From a virus: 20,639 nucleotides of DNA. The translations under genes were made by a program, and so were the position numbers. The stretch lies in IMG/VR virus record IMGVR_UViG_3300050821_007310, positions 1-20,639 of that record. One strand, written 5' to 3'. This document shows positions 280 to 11,371 of this stretch, in pieces; position 1 is the first letter of the stretch; every line of letters begins with the position of its first letter. The notes under the pieces were generated by a model. It worked only from the letters and a program-made list of their open reading frames with translations. It was not told the DNA's origin and did no database searches.

Positions 280-389
280 TGCAACACGCAATCACCATTG
301 GCGATGTGATATGGTTGGCGGTGGGTTTTGGCGGATTGTTTGTAATTATCGCCATCCTCGCCGCCTATGCGGACGGGTTTAGGCACTGA
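276..389 (+). CDS. Single-pass membrane peptide, 37 aa
   Basis: The protein has 37 residues: a short N-terminus (MMQHAITIGDV), one clear hydrophobic segment of about 20 residues (IWLAVGFGGLFVIIAILAAY, residues 12-31) and a short polar tail (ADGFRH). The first Met overlaps the stop of the preceding gene (ATGA), so coupled translation is likely; a second Met follows at once. Small one-helix proteins in phages include holins, spanin parts and superinfection-exclusion factors, but no lysin is visible next to it, so no function is assigned. Its 3' end overlaps the end of the reverse gene at 379-534 by 11 bases. Confidence 0.6.
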   Translation: MMQHAITIGDVIWLAVGFGGLFVIIAILAAYADGFRH

Positions 390-534
390 GTTGCTTGCGA
401 ATTTGCGCGGCTCGTTTTTCGAGCTGTTTCGCGGTGGTTGAGTTTCGGTAATTATTCGGCATTTCCGCGAGGCGCTTTTCGATTTGCTTCAGGGTTTCCT
501 CGAGTTCTTCGGTTCGTGCGGTAATTTCGGTCAT
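379..534 (-). CDS. Small reverse-strand coiled-coil protein, 51 aa
   Basis: The reverse strand reads 51 residues from ATG (534-532) to TAA (381-379). The protein is almost wholly charged helix: MTEITARTEELEETLKQIEK, a short Pro-Asn-Asn-Tyr break, then a second helix KQLEKRAAQIRKQL. This looks like a helical hairpin or short coiled coil. A GAGG ribosome site lies 7 bases ahead of the start. A 17-codon ORF (584-531) ends in ATGA overlap with it and may act as a leader. It diverges from the small terminase gene and converges on the membrane peptide. I do not know the family. It is the first of several small reverse genes in this otherwise forward region. Confidence 0.6.
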   Translation of the reverse strand: MTEITARTEELEETLKQIEKRLAEMPNNYRNSTTAKQLEKRAAQIRKQLSA

Positions 535-4247: not shown

Positions 4248-5822
4248 ATGTTCCGCACCATCGCCTCAAAGATCCTTCGCGACAAGGACGAGTCGGATCG
4301 GGCGTTCACCATCGACGTCTATACCCGCGTGCTCGAGGGAGCGCTATACGACCATCTGCCGTTCGGATTCCATTTCGAGAAGCAGGAAAACGGCGAATAT
4401 GTCCCGTTGCGGGACCGCCGCCCCAGCGTGCGCTACAACATCTGCCGCGGCGTGGTCGACGATTCGGTGTCGCTGTTGTTTTCGGAAGGCCATTTCCCGT
4501 CGGCCGAATGCGAGGACGACGACCAGATCAAGGACGCGCTCGCCGATCTGGTCAAGGAATGCGACCTCAATGAAGTGATGCTGGCCTCGGCCACCATGGG
4601 CTCGGTCGGCTCGGTGGCGATTCATCTCCGCGCCTTGAAGCAAAAGGACGGTTCGCACCGGCTGTTCATCAAGCCGCACCGAACCCGGAATTTCACGCCG
4701 ACGTTTGACCCGCAGGCCCCAGATACGCTGATCAAGCTGCGCGAACAGTACAAGGTCAAGGGACACGATCTGGCCGATGCCGGCTATGACATCCCGAAGA
4801 AATACTACAATTCCGATTTCTGGTTCCGCCGCGAATGGGACGACCAGTGGGAAACCTGGTTTCTGCCGTGGCTGGTGATCGATCCGCAGCTTGCCGGTGA
4901 GGACGTCCCCACCGAACCGCGCAAGGATACGTCCCGCAGCGTCCGCCACGCGCTCGGCTTCGTGCCGTGGGTGTGGGTGCGGAATTTGCCCGGCGATCTG
5001 CGTCTGGTGGTGACGGACAAGCCTACGTCGCTGGGGGCCTCGCAGCCCGCCACCGCTATGATGTTTTCTGATTTTGACGGCTGCTGCACCTTTGCCGCGG
5101 CGATCGATGCCATGGTCGAGATCGACTACCAGCTCAGCCAGAGCGGTCGTGGGCTTAAATATAGCATGGACCCGCTGCTATTGCTGAAAGAGCCGGCGTC
5201 GCCTGAGGGCGCCGAGATCATCAAGGGCCCGACCAACGCGCTGGTCACGAGCGAAAAGGGCGGCGCCGAATTGCTCGAGATCGAAGGCTCGGCATTCGCG
5301 GTTGTTCTGGAATATGTGCGAGCCGTTCGCGAATACGCCCTCGAACAGGTTCATGGCAACAAGGCCAACGCCGACAAGCTGTCGGCGGCGCAATCCGGTC
5401 GCGCGCTGGAATTGATGCACCAGGCATTGATCTGGCTGGCCGATCGTCTGCGGGCGTCCTACGGCGAGGGCGCGCTGCTGTCGATCATGAAAATGGCGAT
5501 CGCCGCGCATCAAAAATACCCGCTCACGGTGTTGGGCAAGCCGTGGCCCAAATTGAACGCCGACACCAAGATCACGTTGAAATGGCCGACCTGGTTCCCG
5601 CCCATGTCGGAGGACTTGCAGGCGCAGGCCGGGACGCTGACCACCCTGACCGCTGGCGCGCTGATGTCGAAAGAAACTGCGGTCGGCGTGCTGGCATCGA
5701 ATTACGATATCGAGGATCCGAAGGCCGAGTTCGCCCAGATTCAGAAGGACGTCGAGGAGGCGTCAGAGCGCGCCATCAATGAGGCCGCGCAGATCAAGGC
5801 GCAGACGACTATTCCGACTTAG
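4248..5822 (+). CDS. Portal protein, SPP1 gp6-like
   Basis: The portal is a ring of 12 subunits at one capsid vertex through which DNA is packaged and ejected and to which terminase and neck dock. At 524 aa it has the right size for the gp6-like family. A clip/stem-like body is followed by the conserved helical stretch LEYVRAVREYALEQVHG, the segment KLSAAQSGRALELMHQ (about 384-399) and the KWPTWFPPMSEDLQAQ region typical of this family near the end. The C-terminus is an amphipathic Ala/Glu-rich helix. The ATG at 4248 follows AAGGGCG. It sits directly after terminase and before scaffold and capsid, the standard order. Its last 14 bases overlap the end of a reverse-strand gene. Confidence 0.85.
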   Translation: MFRTIASKILRDKDESDRAFTIDVYTRVLEGALYDHLPFGFHFEKQENGEYVPLRDRRPSVRYNICRGVVDDSVSLLFSEGHFPSAECEDDDQIKDALADLVKECDLNEVMLASATMGSVGSVAIHLRALKQKDGSHRLFIKPHRTRNFTPTFDPQAPDTLIKLREQYKVKGHDLADAGYDIPKKYYNSDFWFRREWDDQWETWFLPWLVIDPQLAGEDVPTEPRKDTSRSVRHALGFVPWVWVRNLPGDLRLVVTDKPTSLGASQPATAMMFSDFDGCCTFAAAIDAMVEIDYQLSQSGRGLKYSMDPLLLLKEPASPEGAEIIKGPTNALVTSEKGGAELLEIEGSAFAVVLEYVRAVREYALEQVHGNKANADKLSAAQSGRALELMHQALIWLADRLRASYGEGALLSIMKMAIAAHQKYPLTVLGKPWPKLNADTKITLKWPTWFPPMSEDLQAQAGTLTTLTAGALMSKETAVGVLASNYDIEDPKAEFAQIQKDVEEASERAINEAAQIKAQTTIPT

Positions 5823-6114
5823 TCGGATGCACCTTGATGAGGCCGTCATCTGTCATTATGCAAACGCCGCCGTTGACCTCGATGGCGATGTCGATGAACC
5901 GCTGGTTGGGCGCAGACAACGATACCGACTTAATCAGCATCCCGCTCCACAGAACCAGATCAGAGCCATCGCAAAGCAGTAGTTCGCCGGTCTGTAAGTT
6001 CAGATACACCAGACCGTTACAACCGGCTTCATCTTCCGCATAAAGGGCAATGGCGCTCTCGCGTGGCAGAAGAACCGCGTCAGGGTAGGCTGGATGCTGC
6101 TCAAATTCTATCAT
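5809..6114 (-). CDS. Reverse-strand hypothetical protein, 101 aa
   Basis: A compact, acidic, beta-rich-looking protein: a short aromatic start (IEFEQHPAYPDAVLLP), then alternating hydrophobic strands (SAIALYAEDEAG, GLVYLNLQTGELLLC, LIKSVSLSA, IAIEVNGGVCIM) and a basic tail. It resembles a small beta-sandwich or barrel, but I do not recognise it. The ATG at 6114 overlaps the TGA of the preceding reverse gene (ATGA), so it is the last gene of a three-gene reverse operon. Its end overlaps the portal gene end by 14 bases. Such oppositely oriented inserts between virion genes are usually accessory (moron-type) genes. Confidence 0.7.
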   Translation of the reverse strand: MIEFEQHPAYPDAVLLPRESAIALYAEDEAGCNGLVYLNLQTGELLLCDGSDLVLWSGMLIKSVSLSAPNQRFIDIAIEVNGGVCIMTDDGLIKVHPTKSE

Positions 6115-6371
6115 TTGCGTTCCCGCCAGGGATAGGGAGAGGTCTCGTTAGGCGAGCCATTAATGTCACCGACGAACTTAAAGCGGCTCTCGCCATATTC
6201 TTTCGGCAGCGGCATGATCGCTTCGTCCTCTTTTCTGACGATCCGATATCCGTTTGCCTCGATTGCCTCGATCGCGGCGCGAGCCATTGAAATTTGATCT
6301 TCCCATGCGGCTGGACTGCCGAACTGGTACATAGCCAGTGCCTTCGCCACCCGATCTTCCAACTCTCTCAT
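6111..6371 (-). CDS. Reverse-strand hypothetical protein, 86 aa
   Basis: The start ATG (6371-6369) is set by a clear ribosome site, ATCAGGAG, 6 bases upstream. The longer open frame reaching 6623 lacks such a signal and runs antisense-like through the 57-aa gene. The N-terminal half is helical (MRELEDRVAKALAMYQFG, then DQISMARAAIEAIEANGYRI) and the C-terminal half is polar with Pro and aromatic residues (PLPKEYGESRFKF, PYPWRERK). It ends in an ATGA overlap with the 101-aa gene and begins 25 bases after the 57-aa gene, so the three form one reverse operon. Function unknown. Confidence 0.7.
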   Translation of the reverse strand: MRELEDRVAKALAMYQFGSPAAWEDQISMARAAIEAIEANGYRIVRKEDEAIMPLPKEYGESRFKFVGDINGSPNETSPYPWRERK

Positions 6372-6396
6372 TTTGAGCTCCTGATGCCAGCTATTG

Positions 6397-6570
6397 TCAA
6401 ATCCTTTGGTAAATATATCGGATTCTGTCGCGGAATTCTTCCAAGCTAATCGAACCGGCATCCAGCCTTTCGAACTCAATGCCCAGCATCGACACCAAAA
6501 GCGTGAATTTATTATTTCCTTCCTGATAGCTAAGGAATGCAGCTCTTGAGAGCGTGACATCGTCGGACAT
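6397..6570 (-). CDS. Reverse-strand small protein, 57 aa
   Basis: This reads ATG (6570-6568) to TGA (6399-6397): MSDDVTLSRAAFLSYQEGNN, a hydrophobic middle (KFTLLVSMLGIEFERL) and a basic, Tyr-rich helical end (EEFRDRIRYIYQRI). A perfect-spaced ribosome site ATCAGGAG lies 6 bases ahead of the ATG, and an extended -10-like element lies about 23 bases ahead. As the first gene of the reverse operon it would be made from that promoter independently of the forward late genes. I do not recognise a family. Confidence 0.65.
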   Translation of the reverse strand: MSDDVTLSRAAFLSYQEGNNKFTLLVSMLGIEFERLDAGSISLEEFRDRIRYIYQRI

Positions 6571-6576
6571 TTTGCA

Positions 6577-6605
6577 CTCCTGATTGAGCGCAAATCATAG
6601 CACAA
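6577..6605 (-). promoter_or_regulatory. Reverse promoter-like element and shared leader
   Basis: On the reverse strand TTGTGCTATGATT (6605-6593) contains an extended -10 (TGC-TATGAT), followed by the leader GCTCAATCAGGAG (6589-6577) with the ribosome site of the 57-aa gene. The same 13-base leader recurs before the reverse gene at 7600, and the same 13-base -10 element recurs at 10687-10699. No good -35 is seen, as is common with extended -10 promoters. Confidence 0.5.
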
Positions 6606-6627
6606 TTCAACAGCAAAATCCAAACAT

Positions 6628-6651
6628 CCGCTCGCTTGACGCGGGTTTTTT
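6628..6651 (+). terminator. Possible weak intrinsic terminator before the scaffold gene
   Basis: CCGC (6628-6631) pairs with GCGG (6641-6644) and is followed by a run of six T (6646-6651). The stem is short, so this is weak alone. It would stop forward transcripts coming through the antisense of the reverse operon, 21 bases before the scaffold start. The placement matches three stronger terminators in the window. Confidence 0.4.
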
Positions 6652-6672
6652 CATGAAAGGCTCAGACAGCCC

Positions 6673-7326
6673 ATGCGTTCCAGTCCATTCGGCGGCTCGA
6701 TGCCGCGTGCAGTATTTGATGCAGCTACAGATGCCGGTGCAGCACCGCCAACCACAACGCAGACCCACGTCAAGGTCGATCTGCCACCGTCAAAATATGA
6801 CGAACCATTGGCCCCCGCGACGCAGACGTTCCCCCGCGAATATGTCGAGGAACTGCGCAACGAGAACAAGACCTGGCGCGGCAAGATGCAGTCCGAGCGC
6901 ACGGCGCGTGAGGCGGCGGAAGCCAGGATCACGGCGGCCGAGGCGATCGCTGCAAGGGCCAAGGAAGCTGCGGAAACCGAGGCCGGCACCAAGGTCAAGG
7001 ATGCCGAGACAAAGGCGAACGAGCGCATCATTCGCGCCGAACTAAAACTGGCGGCGAAACTCGCCGGCATGGTCGATCTCGACGGGCTGAAGCTCGCCGA
7101 TCTGTCAACGGTAAAATTGAAAGATGACGGCACGGTCGAAGGCGCCGACGAGTTGATGGCCAGTCTCAAAGAGAAAAAGCCTTACCTCTTTGGTACAGCC
7201 ACCACTGGTTCGAGCAACCCGACGCCTCCGCCCAAGCCGGATCCCGGCACTCCAAAGCACGCTCGGGACATGACGCCCGCAGAGCGCGAAGCGAAACTGA
7301 ACGAACTCAAGCGCCTGGGGCGCTGA
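6673..7326 (+). CDS. Capsid scaffolding-like protein, 217 aa
   Basis: Scaffolding proteins guide coat assembly and then leave the procapsid. This protein shows the usual build: a low-complexity N-terminus, a long charged helix or coiled coil (about 55-135, Ala/Glu/Lys/Arg-rich, such as ERTAREAAEARITAAEAIAA), a hydrophobic region (LAGMVDLDGLKLADL), a Pro-rich linker (PTPPPKPDPGTP) and the family-style end RDMTPAEREAKLNELKRLGR. It lies between portal and capsid as expected. The ATG at 6673 is used; the in-frame ATG at 6700, preceded by GGCGG, is an alternative. The last 20 bases overlap the end of a reverse gene. Confidence 0.75.
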   Translation: MRSSPFGGSMPRAVFDAATDAGAAPPTTTQTHVKVDLPPSKYDEPLAPATQTFPREYVEELRNENKTWRGKMQSERTAREAAEARITAAEAIAARAKEAAETEAGTKVKDAETKANERIIRAELKLAAKLAGMVDLDGLKLADLSTVKLKDDGTVEGADELMASLKEKKPYLFGTATTGSSNPTPPPKPDPGTPKHARDMTPAEREAKLNELKRLGR

Positions 7327-7600
7327 CCGTATATCTCTCGACGGCCTTTTGAAGTTGCTTAAAAGCCTCCATCCAGCCGACGGCGTCGTCGTGCATCAGC
7401 ATCTTGCACGCGCCGGAATCCAGTTCTCGCTGCATCGCTCTAAGGGCGTATCCAGCGGCCTCCGCTGAAATGACGCGGCCTGCTGAATAGCCGTCCGTGT
7501 TGCCCTTGTAAGGGCGGCAATCGACGATCGGATGGATGACGTCCGGCTCCCACTTTGGCTTTGGCGCATCGCCGAGAGAAACAGTTACATCGTAAGTCAT
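7307..7600 (-). CDS. Reverse-strand hypothetical protein, 97 aa
   Basis: A single reverse gene between scaffold and capsid. The start at ATG 7600-7598 is set by ATCAGGAG, 6 bases upstream; a longer version starting at 7714 (135 aa) is open but has no ribosome site. The N-terminal part is strand-like and Pro-rich (MTYDVTVSLGDAPKPKWEPD). The rest contains a Gly/Tyr turn (YKGNTDGYSAGR) and helices (SAEAAGYALRAMQREL, GWMEAFKQLQKAVERY), with two Cys. I do not recognise it. It shares its leader with the reverse operon at 5809-6570 and probably belongs to the same class of accessory gene. It overlaps the scaffold end by 20 bases. Confidence 0.7.
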   Translation of the reverse strand: MTYDVTVSLGDAPKPKWEPDVIHPIVDCRPYKGNTDGYSAGRVISAEAAGYALRAMQRELDSGACKMLMHDDAVGWMEAFKQLQKAVERYTVSAPGA

Positions 7601-7606
7601 ATCGCG

Positions 7607-7638
7607 CTCCTGATTGAGCACCAACTCTACCACGAATT
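7607..7638 (-). promoter_or_regulatory. Second reverse promoter-like element with the shared leader
   Basis: Reverse strand AATTCGTGGTAGAGTTGG followed by GCTCAATCAGGAG (7619-7607) lines up closely with the element before the 57-aa gene: AATT-(C)GTG, a TGG-extended -10-like TAGAGT (7629-7624) in place of TATGAT, then the identical 13-base leader. The -10 is poorer than its partner and no -35 is visible. Confidence 0.4.
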
Positions 7639-7752: not shown

Positions 7753-9078
7753 ATGGGAATCCAGAACTTCCCGGCTGCATTGCAGCCCATCATCCAGATC
7801 GGTTTCCTCGAGACCGAATTCCAGAAATTCCTGCAGTCCGTTCTTGGCTACCGTCAGGCGGCCATGCGCGAGACCTTTCGCGTCAACATCGGTGAAACGC
7901 TGACCAAGACTCGTCCTGGTCTGAAAGCGCCGACCACCACGCCGCTGGTCACCTCGAGCAATACCAACCTCGACAACGGCCTGTCGCCGACCACGTTCAC
8001 GATCGAACAATACAAACTGACGCTCGCCATGTACGGCGATTCGATCGACCTCAACATGGTCACCAACAAGGTCGGCATTGTCGACCAATTCATGCACAAC
8101 GTGCGGGTCAACGCCATCCAGGCGGCACAATCGCTAGACCGCATCGCGCGCAACCGGTTGTTTGCCGCCTACATGGGCTATAACACCCGCGTCCGCACCA
8201 CGCTCGGTGCGCCGGCGGCGACCATCAACGTCGACGACGTCACCGGCTTCGGCACGGTGCTGGTCAACGGCGTTCCGACGGCAGTATCGGCCACCAATCC
8301 GCTCGCGGTCACGGTGGGCTTGAACGTCTACAGCCTCACCTCGGTCGCGGTCGACGCTTCCAACGTCTCGACGGCGTTCAACGGCATCTCTGGCACGCTG
8401 ACGTTTGCGACCAACGTGACGGTTGCCGACGGCACCGCCGGTAATGCTGTGGTGGCCTCTACCGCCCCGACCATCTTGCGTCCCGGTGGCACCGCTGCAT
8501 CGACCACGGCCTCGATCGCCGCGACCAACCTGTTCAATATGTCGATCGCGCTCGACGCGGTGGCGTATCTGCGGCGCAACGCGGTGCCTGCGATCAACGG
8601 ATACTACAACTGCCATCTTGACCCGGTCAGCGCGCGGCAACTGTTCGCCGATCCTGACTTCAAGCAGCTGTTCCAGGGCCAGAGCGCGGCGCAAGAGTTC
8701 CGCATGGGCAAGGTGATTGAACTGCTCGATTTGCGGTTCGTGCCCACCACCGAAGCTCCGGTGCAGGCGCACCCGACGCTTGCCGGCGTCACCGTCCGCC
8801 GCCCGCTTGTAGTCGGCGAGGGCGCGTTGATCGAAGGCGATTATGAAGGTATGGCCGACCTTAACGTCGCGCCCGCCGATAGCATCATCGACGTGGTCGA
8901 CGGCGTGGTGCAGGTCACCCGCGAACCGCTCGATCGTCTGCAGCAGATCATCGCGCAATCGTGGTATTGGATCGGGGACTTCGTCGCCCCGACTGATTTC
9001 ACGGTCAACGCTTCGATCGTTCCGACCGCCAGCAACGCCTACGCCAAGCGCGGCGTTGTCATCGAGCACGCAGGCTAA
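7753..9078 (+). CDS. Major capsid protein, HK97-fold (N4 gp56 / P22 coat-like)
   Basis: This builds the icosahedral shell. Its 441 aa begin MGIQNFPAALQPIIQIGFLE, a start seen in N4gp56/P22-type coat proteins; the N-arm and E-loop region follow (about 40-100), then the spine helix (IVDQFMHNVRVNAIQAAQSL, 109-128). Residues about 147-245 are a Thr/Val/Ala-rich beta insertion, and the axial domain returns with LDPVSARQLFADPDFKQLFQ (289-308) and the strand set ending VIEHAG. AAAGGA gives a strong ribosome site. A strong terminator follows the stop. Position after portal and scaffold and the high-expression signals support the call; the exact subfamily is inferred. Confidence 0.85.
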   Translation: MGIQNFPAALQPIIQIGFLETEFQKFLQSVLGYRQAAMRETFRVNIGETLTKTRPGLKAPTTTPLVTSSNTNLDNGLSPTTFTIEQYKLTLAMYGDSIDLNMVTNKVGIVDQFMHNVRVNAIQAAQSLDRIARNRLFAAYMGYNTRVRTTLGAPAATINVDDVTGFGTVLVNGVPTAVSATNPLAVTVGLNVYSLTSVAVDASNVSTAFNGISGTLTFATNVTVADGTAGNAVVASTAPTILRPGGTAASTTASIAATNLFNMSIALDAVAYLRRNAVPAINGYYNCHLDPVSARQLFADPDFKQLFQGQSAAQEFRMGKVIELLDLRFVPTTEAPVQAHPTLAGVTVRRPLVVGEGALIEGDYEGMADLNVAPADSIIDVVDGVVQVTREPLDRLQQIIAQSWYWIGDFVAPTDFTVNASIVPTASNAYAKRGVVIEHAG

Positions 9079-9142: not shown

Positions 9143-9484
9143 ATGGATGACTCATTTGCCAACGGCCTCGTGGCCAAGGCCGGCGGCGCCCAGTTAGGCG
9201 CAACCACGATCGGCCTCGTTTCCGGTTCCGGCGGCGCGACCATGAATCGCTTCACTACGGTCGCCACGGGTGGTGACAGCGCGATTTTGCCGGCCGCATC
9301 GCCGGGCCTTCGTTACTATGTTGAGAATGCCACCGCCAACTCGATGAACATATTCCCGCAGAACAACGGCGACATCATCAACGCACTGGTTATCAATACC
9401 GCTTTCGCGCTTGCCGCGGGCAAGACTGCCTGGTTCATCTGCGTCGGACAGGGCTTTTGGAAAACCCATCCGCTCGTGCCATAA
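9143..9484 (+). CDS. Probable capsid decoration protein, copy 1, 113 aa
   Basis: A small Gly/Ala/Thr-rich beta protein with no membrane or catalytic signature. Segments GLVAKAGGAQLGATTI, RFTTVATGGDSAILPAASPG and ALAAGKTAWFICVGQGFWKT match the next gene closely, so the two are paralogues. Small beta-rich proteins just after the coat gene are usually head decoration or stabilisation proteins; this is an inference from place and composition. GGAG 8 bases upstream is a good ribosome site. It lies between two strong terminators, so it may have its own output level. Confidence 0.65.
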   Translation: MDDSFANGLVAKAGGAQLGATTIGLVSGSGGATMNRFTTVATGGDSAILPAASPGLRYYVENATANSMNIFPQNNGDIINALVINTAFALAAGKTAWFICVGQGFWKTHPLVP

Positions 9485-9490
9485 ATCACT

Positions 9491-9516
9491 AGCCGCCTTC
9501 GGGCGGCTTTTTCTTT
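9491..9516 (+). terminator. Strong intrinsic terminator between the paralogues
   Basis: AGCCGCC (9491-9497) pairs perfectly with GGCGGCT (9502-9508) around the very stable TTCG tetraloop, followed by TTTTCTTT. It begins 6 bases after the stop of copy 1 and lies 30 bases before the start of copy 2. Confidence 0.85.
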
Positions 9517-9546
9517 CATCTAATATAACCCAAGGAGCGCCCCGAT

Positions 9547-9951
9547 ATGGCTGGCGAAACCCCCATTACGCCAAACTACCTTGGCGAGACCGTGATCGAA
9601 AAGAATATCACCATCACCAACCAATTATTCCAATCGACGCAAGAGGGCTTGACGGCCAAGGCCGGTGGCGGGCAGGCCGGTGCTACGCCGATCACAAGCA
9701 TGTGTGCCCGGTTTACCACCGTTGCGACCACGCTGGATTCGGCCATTCTTCCGACCGCCGTCCCAGGTCTGGAAATCACCGTGATCAACGGCACCCCCGC
9801 CGCCAATGCAACAAGCCTCAACGTCTTTCCGGATGTTGGAAGCTCGATCAATGCCACGGCTGCCAATACGGCGCTTGCAGTGCCGAGTGCTAAAACGGCG
9901 ATCTTCTTCACCACCGTTGCCGGCACTTGGCACTCGATCCTGAGCGCATAA
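9547..9951 (+). CDS. Probable capsid decoration protein, copy 2, 134 aa
   Basis: Paralogue of the preceding gene, with a longer N-terminal arm (MAGETPITPNYLGETVIEKN, about 35 residues more). The shared core includes GLTAKAGGGQAGATPI, RFTTVATTLDSAILPTAVPG and SAKTAIFFTTVAGTWHSI. A likely trimeric or beta-sandwich head protein; binding to the capsid is inferred. AAGGAG 9 bases ahead is a near-perfect ribosome site. The stop TAA overlaps the next ATG by one base, so the following small gene is coupled. Confidence 0.65.
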   Translation: MAGETPITPNYLGETVIEKNITITNQLFQSTQEGLTAKAGGGQAGATPITSMCARFTTVATTLDSAILPTAVPGLEITVINGTPAANATSLNVFPDVGSSINATAANTALAVPSAKTAIFFTTVAGTWHSILSA

Positions 9952-10581: not shown

Positions 10582-10681
10582 ATTCGGATTCCTCGCCCGG
10601 TATTTCTTGGCCCGTCATCCTACTAGAGCGGGGCCGTACTATCGGACTTTCACCGAAATACCCGCTCAAACCGTGTCTCAT
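10553..10681 (-). CDS. Possible leaderless reverse ORF, 42 aa
   Basis: The reverse strand reads ATG (10681-10679) to TGA (10555-10553): MRHGLSGYFGESPIVRPRSS, then an acidic tail. There is no ribosome site, but the ATG lies 6 bases after the extended -10 TATGAT copied from the reverse operon promoter, the layout of a leaderless message. Its end overlaps the forward gene by 29 bases, like the other reverse genes. The composition is not strongly protein-like, so the transcript could instead be a small RNA. Confidence 0.25.
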   Translation of the reverse strand: MRHGLSGYFGESPIVRPRSSRMTGQEIPGEESEFNAPCLHRG

Positions 10682-10722
10682 TCTGCAATCATAGCACAAC
10701 CGAGGCGGGAAGTGAAATAGCC
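10582..10722. other. Intergenic region with nested inverted repeats
   Basis: A 141-base gap in a tightly packed operon. It holds GGTATTTC (10599-10606) with GAAATACC (10655-10662), an exact 8-base inverted repeat, and inside it GGCCC (10609-10613) with GGGCC (10631-10635). No T-run follows, so it is not a typical terminator. It could be a structured leader of the next gene or part of a reverse transcript from the 10687-10699 element. Confidence 0.3.
10687..10699 (-). promoter_or_regulatory. Third copy of the reverse extended -10 element
   Basis: TTGTGCTATGATT on the reverse strand, identical over 13 bases to the element before the reverse operon (6593-6605). Here it points at the small ORF 10681-10553 and the antisense of the signal-peptide gene. 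Confidence 0.4.
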
Positions 10723-11296: not shown

Positions 11297-11371
11297 GCGG
11301 CGTTAGCTCAATGGCAGAGCTATAGTCTTCCAAACTAACGACGACGGGTTCGATTCCCTCACGCCGCTCCA
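11297..11371 (+). tRNA. tRNA-Gly(TCC), divergent
   Basis: A cloverleaf can be drawn: acceptor GCGGCGT (11297-11303) pairs fully with ACGCCGC (11361-11367), the D stem is GCTC/GAGC with loop AATGGCA, the anticodon loop CTTCCAA (11327-11333) has anticodon TCC, the T loop is TTCGATT (11349-11355), the discriminator base is T and CCA is encoded. Weak points: the T stem has only three Watson-Crick pairs of five (ACGGG/CCCTC) and the first anticodon pair is A-A. It would read GGA codons. It stands between connector and neck genes and may be functional but divergent, or decaying. Confidence 0.8.

Follow-up and report, generated by a model that had tools for sequence, protein, structure and literature searches.

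Two groups of small reverse-strand genes interrupt the forward head operon of IMGVR_UViG_3300050821_007310, an IMG/VR virus record from an environmental sample that was analysed over its entire length of 20,639 bases (the window). They are probably two moron-like accessory loci, inserted in reverse orientation, whose promoter, leader and start regions are copies of one module and which probably share their control. Unit A is an operon of three open reading frames (ORFs), r57-r86-r101, between the portal and scaffold genes, and unit B is a single ORF, r97, between the scaffold and capsid genes. This reading draws on the layout of the genes, the coding signal of three of the four ORFs, a repeat of 50 nucleotides (nt) at the starts of r57 and r97, and the absence of both units from related phages.

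Layout and coding signal of the two reverse-strand units

All coordinates given for the four reverse ORFs in a preliminary description of this DNA were correct (Table 1). The ORFs r101, r86, r57 and r97 encode 101, 86, 57 and 97 amino acids (aa), respectively. r86 and r101 share a stop-start overlap (ATGA), r101 meets the portal stop tail-to-tail with a 14 nt overlap, and r97 meets the scaffold stop in the same manner with a 20 nt overlap. ATG-started ORFs on the reverse strand cover 756 of the 841 bases in the portal-scaffold gap, an extent reached in 0 of 1000 dinucleotide shuffles, and 294 of the 341 bases in the scaffold-capsid gap, reached in 21 of 1000. Coding potential was scored using a codon model trained on 13 forward ORFs of the window (leave-one-out scores of 0.04-0.29), with 50 spurious ORFs as a control (mean -0.134). 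The scores of r101, r86 and r97 lie inside the range of the training ORFs, and these three are taken as genes; r57 is a probable gene. GC content dips to 0.445 around r57 in unit A, compared with 0.60-0.66 across much of the portal and capsid genes, and is 0.555-0.62 in unit B, which is not distinct from its surroundings.

A repeated segment at the starts of r57 and r97

The signal ATCAGGAG-N6-ATG occurred exactly three times in the window, always on the reverse strand and at the start of one of the reverse ORFs (6369-6385 for r86, 6568-6584 for r57 and 7598-7614 for r97), against a mean of 0.00 in 100 shuffles. The common spacing reported in the preliminary description was therefore reproduced, as was its identical 13-base leader at two genes, exact copies of GCTCAATCAGGAG being present in the window only at 6577-6589 and 7607-7619. 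AGGAG lies six bases before the ATG at both leader copies. When the 14 AGGAG sites found on either strand of the window were compared (91 pairs), r57/r97 was the only pair in which all eight preceding bases are identical, the next best pairs having five in common. A repeat search recovered the two regions as 50 nt copies, A and B, with 74% identity (blastn E value of 2.7e-4 over 36 nt), reaching from the -10 region to approximately the first eight codons, with 21 of 30 bases identical before the start and 17 of 30 from the ATG onward. The encoded N-termini are MSDDVTLS (r57) and MTYDVTVS (r97). The remainder of the two proteins does not align, as expected from the earlier statement that the coding regions are dissimilar, but the repeat itself enters the coding part. 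As the similarity spans the -10 region through the first codons, the repeat is a -10/leader/start segment, and more than a ribosome-binding site.

An alternative explanation would be that units A and B are unrelated accessory insertions whose common leader reflects convergence on a good ribosome-binding site together with chance. AGGAG is itself under selection, and the r86 site, which is internal to the operon and shows no promoter signal of its own, shares just the ATCAGGAG core (ATC-AGGAG) and its spacing with copies A and B; it matches each of them at 14 of 30 bases before the start, approximately what a common Shine-Dalgarno sequence would give, and at 7-8 of 30 after it. The r101 start is without this leader. 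The leader pattern also matched 35 stretches of viral contigs that showed no sign of kinship to the window and had no homologous sequence upstream or downstream, a number that by rough estimate is not far above chance, so that the leader was not recovered elsewhere as a cassette; among 25 related virus records it had no match. However, the eight identical bases before AGGAG are the unique extreme of the 91 pairs, and identity that continues up to the -10 and down into the codons goes beyond the needs of a Shine-Dalgarno sequence. Convergence is accordingly considered unlikely.

The leaders also contain imperfect dyads (GCGCTC-AATCAG-GAGTGC and GTGCTC-AATCAG-GAGCGC), which allow full RNA pairing with one G-U pair each and place the Shine-Dalgarno sequence partly within the hairpin stem in both cases. 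The repeat could be chiefly a binding site, in the form of a transcription-start operator or of an RNA hairpin that masks the Shine-Dalgarno sequence, through which one phage regulator would switch both loci. The presence of the dyad in both copies and the predicted stabilities (Table 1) are consistent with this, but the shuffle statistics are modest for either use, copy B in a longer context was no better than shuffles, the dyad pattern with one mismatch permitted was found 4 times against 1.4 expected, and the r86 site has no dyad. Of the two uses, the start-site operator is more likely, because the -10, if correct, would put the transcription start inside the 5′ arm and truncate the RNA hairpin. 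That the repeat is chiefly such a site is judged improbable.

It is very improbable that the reverse ORFs are not genes and that the repeat is instead a forward-strand signal, situated ~84 and ~134 nt before scaffold and capsid. Both copies do precede these forward genes, and a forward terminator-like hairpin (6630-6646) adjoins copy A, but the codon usage, the tiling that no shuffle reached in the portal-scaffold gap and the stop-start overlaps speak for genes, the distance between signal and ATG is exact on the reverse strand, and relatives do not carry the element.

For two moron-like inserts, the following course of expression is proposed. A promoter at the right edge of each unit (A, ~0.8 kb; B, ~0.35 kb) would drive leftward transcription, first through a short leader that carries a strong Shine-Dalgarno sequence, and r86 and r101 would be translated via re-initiation and stop-start coupling. 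Because the promoters, leaders and first codons appear to be diverged copies of one module, A and B are probably under common control, which would act through the transcription start signal, the Shine-Dalgarno sequence and, perhaps, a start-site operator, and would be independent of forward late transcription. We infer from this arrangement promoter activity, shared regulation and expression in lysogens. An extension of the proposal, in which a transferable start module (promoter, dyad leader, Shine-Dalgarno sequence and approximately the first eight codons) was copied within the genome and joined to small, unrelated ORFs, is a tentative idea with the balance against it; if true, new accessory genes would obtain one common regulator and a common N-terminus.

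Several results weigh against the proposed accessory loci. The coding signal of r57 is weak, its score being attained by 22% of the spurious ORFs. The -10-like sequence of copy B, TGGTAGAGT (TAGAGT), is poor, though its spacing to the leader equals that in copy A, and a consensus scan of the region found no sigma-70 site with both hexamers. No terminator directly follows r101 or r97, the nearest reverse terminator-like sites being at 5541-5522 inside portal and 7147-7128 inside scaffold. None of the four proteins had a homologue in the fetched loci. No integrase was identified in the window, and as this is a 20.6 kb fragment, temperate life is suggested by the relatives only, some of which lie on Acetobacteraceae, Dyella and Luteibacter contigs and are probable prophages.

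The preliminary description had proposed aligned extended -10 sequences and cassettes copied to new sites. The -10 is good at r57 (TGCTATGAT) and poor at r97, and the copied element amounts to a homologous promoter-leader-start shared by two insertion units, rather than four cassettes. Its interpretation is supported in part, for the accessory units and their shared start segment; it is not supported as worded for the four cassettes, and the -10 of the second copy is weak.

One further sequence of copy A recurs in the window. The 13-mer TTGTGCTATGATT, from its extended -10 region, is exactly repeated at 10687-10699 (-) in the intergenic gap 10582-10722. A 42-aa ORF behind this second copy scored -0.255 and does not look coding; the second copy may drive a small RNA or may be due to chance.

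Table 1 Positions of the reverse-strand units, their signals and the neighbouring head genes in the window
Feature	Position	Strand	Details
r101, third gene of unit A	5809..6114	-	codon score +0.126, top of six frames
r86, second gene of unit A	6111..6371	-	codon score +0.093, top of six frames
r57, first gene of unit A, AT-rich	6397..6570	-	codon score -0.010, yet top of six frames
r97, sole gene of unit B	7307..7600	-	codon score +0.147, exceeds all 50 spurious ORFs
Repeat copy A: -10 region, leader GCTCAATCAGGAG, start and first codons of r57	6554..6603	-	
Repeat copy B: -10-like TGGTAGAGT, leader GCTCAATCAGGAG, start and first codons of r97	7584..7633	-	
Start signal C: ATCAGGAG-N6-ATG of r86, core only, inside operon	6369..6385	-	
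Extended -10-like TGCTATGAT of copy A	6594..6602	-	good match
Imperfect dyad, possible RNA hairpin over r57 Shine-Dalgarno	6571..6594	-	-12 kcal/mol; 8/200 shuffles as stable
Imperfect dyad, possible RNA hairpin over r97 Shine-Dalgarno	7604..7621	-	~-9.4 kcal/mol; 18/200 shuffles as stable
Terminator-like hairpin just before scaffold	6630..6646	+	
Portal gene, left neighbour of unit A	4248..5822	+	phrog_145 E 1e-11, phrog_64 E 8e-11
Scaffold gene	6673..7326	+	PF06810 E 3e-19
Major capsid gene, right neighbour of unit B	7753..9078	+	phrog_1357 E 8e-31

Related phages and gene context

Relatives were collected by tblastn with the portal, scaffold and capsid proteins, giving 206 loci in which all three genes could be placed. 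Median gap lengths in these relatives are 4 nt between portal and scaffold and 84 nt between scaffold and capsid, and the three genes are directly adjacent in the Komagataeibacter phages phiKX1 and phiKX2. The portal of the window has 42% identity to Komagataeibacter phage portals. No credible match to r101, r86, r57 or r97 was found in the 206 relatives at an E value of 0.1; the sole r97 match covered 23 residues and was at chance level. The closest relative, locus L086 (73% identity in capsid, 58% in portal and 57% in scaffold), is without units A and B and has gaps of ~68 and ~140 nt in their place, and immediately upstream of the start codon its capsid leader is similar to that of the window. 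Compared with the 206 relatives and L086, both units are thus present/absent loci between genes that are adjacent elsewhere, and the comparison with relatives that had been suggested as a check on their accessory nature came out in its favour.

A GC hairpin follows the portal gene in 101 of the 206 relatives, with a T-rich tail in 21, and lies 25 nt past the portal stop in L086. Because of these similar hairpins, the hairpin at 6630-6646 in the window, which is 800 nt from portal and adjoins scaffold, is probably ancestral and was displaced by unit A. Such post-portal hairpins suggest that the head operon has a conserved site for attenuation or processing. Judged by eye, unit A seems to have entered after the portal stop, ahead of the hairpin, and unit B after the scaffold stop, ahead of the capsid leader.

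Approximately 35 relatives have a portal-scaffold gap of more than 150 nt, filled mainly by forward genes. Five relatives (L153, L157, L197, L237 and L242) carry other reverse genes with good codon scores in the scaffold-capsid gap, which is therefore a recurrent site of varied content: reverse accessory genes recur there in this phage group, and their contents differ. The gene in L153 (6378-6824, -) encodes 148 aa with a lipoprotein-like signal, MRPKFAFLFVAIPALVALGGC, and is a candidate surface-acting accessory gene. On the Komagataeibacter contigs L237 (4762-6372) and L242 (4646-6262, -), the gap holds a reverse gene of 536-538 aa, the middle of which looks by eye like a Hint/intein-type domain.

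The forward gene order in the window is a probable small terminase-like gene, a DNA methyltransferase (PF01555), the large terminase (PF04466), portal, scaffold and capsid, followed by more structural and tail-region genes in the same direction. Two neighbouring, similar-looking ORFs of 113 and 134 aa at 9143-9951, both of which match neighbouring ORFs in L086, may encode head decoration proteins. A tRNA-Gly (anticodon TCC) lies between two structural-region genes at 11297-11371 (+). A further reverse ORF of 51 aa at 379-534 (-) has a phage-like codon score (+0.130) and an AGAGG-like site upstream, and falls outside the repeat family.

Predicted proteins and known parallels

No significant family was found for the reverse ORF proteins in Pfam, PHROGs, NCBIfam or PADLOC. 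tblastn searches gave no homologues of r86, r97 or r101 in the phage collection, and no credible homologue of r86 or r97 in 385 genomes of one class. A search of viral contigs for loci related to the small proteins was likewise negative. A match of r97 in locus L309 lay within an apparent ATP-synthase region and was dismissed as chance. A likeness by eye between r86 and a common phage hypothetical protein (VAKAL...W...ARAAIEA) was dropped after a regular-expression search of all loci returned nothing. Structure models of r101 and r97 had a mean predicted local distance difference test (pLDDT) score of 43-44, under usable confidence. The anti-defence, exclusion or conversion roles proposed earlier are guesses, neither supported nor excluded by these searches. 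A host-modifying or superinfection role is usual for moron-type loci, and by analogy such a role for units A and B would be no more than a prior.

An RNA-seq study described an antisense locus with its own promoter in the lytic genes of the ST64B prophage (STMMW_20121), in a context that was called characteristic of moron loci, and lists lambda bor and lom among prophage genes expressed in lysogens (PMC7067206). As with morons, units A and B are extra genes that are not in relatives, lie between structural genes in the opposite direction and have a promoter-like signal. Unlike with morons, no terminator was found directly beside them, the two loci share a homologous promoter-leader-start, and no relatives are known for the proteins.

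Among published systems, the nearest counterpart of the shared leader is the set of 13-bp Start-Associated Sequences (SAS/ESAS) of cluster K mycobacteriophages, GGGATAGGAGCCC. These are present in 11-19 copies in the non-structural genome half, each a few bases ahead of the start of an unrelated gene, and a role in translation initiation has been proposed for them, not established (PMC3203893). Like these, the A/B leader is a 13-base asymmetric repeat with AGGAG, a few bases before the ATG of unrelated genes. Its sequence is GCTCAATCAGGAG and not the consensus GGGATAGGAGCCC, however, only two full copies are present in the 20.6 kb fragment, both in the head operon, and the homology extends to the -10 and the first codons. 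On the sequences compared, the leader is not classed as an SAS, because sequence, copy number and genome region differ. A second parallel was found on an IMG/VR contig, L039, in which GGTAATATGTAGGTGGGAGG precedes four unrelated starts, with TGTAGGTGGGAGG, preceded by GGTAATA, at 2293, 2535, 2802 and 4693 (+). As in the window, an apparent promoter-leader unit is reused before unrelated ORFs within one phage, but the L039 leader has a different sequence and forward orientation, and the contig has merely a distant terminase link to the window.

The feature is real, and moron-like accessory loci are of an ordinary kind; the shared start module is its one unusual detail. It provides a concrete case of how accessory genes in a late operon could gain their own control, in which a single start module is present at two inserts in diverged form. 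Should this module prove to be a common regulatory site, its sequence would allow accessory loci to be sought in phages whose proteins lack known relatives. The scaffold-capsid gap is, in this phage group, a repeated landing site for varied reverse-strand genes.

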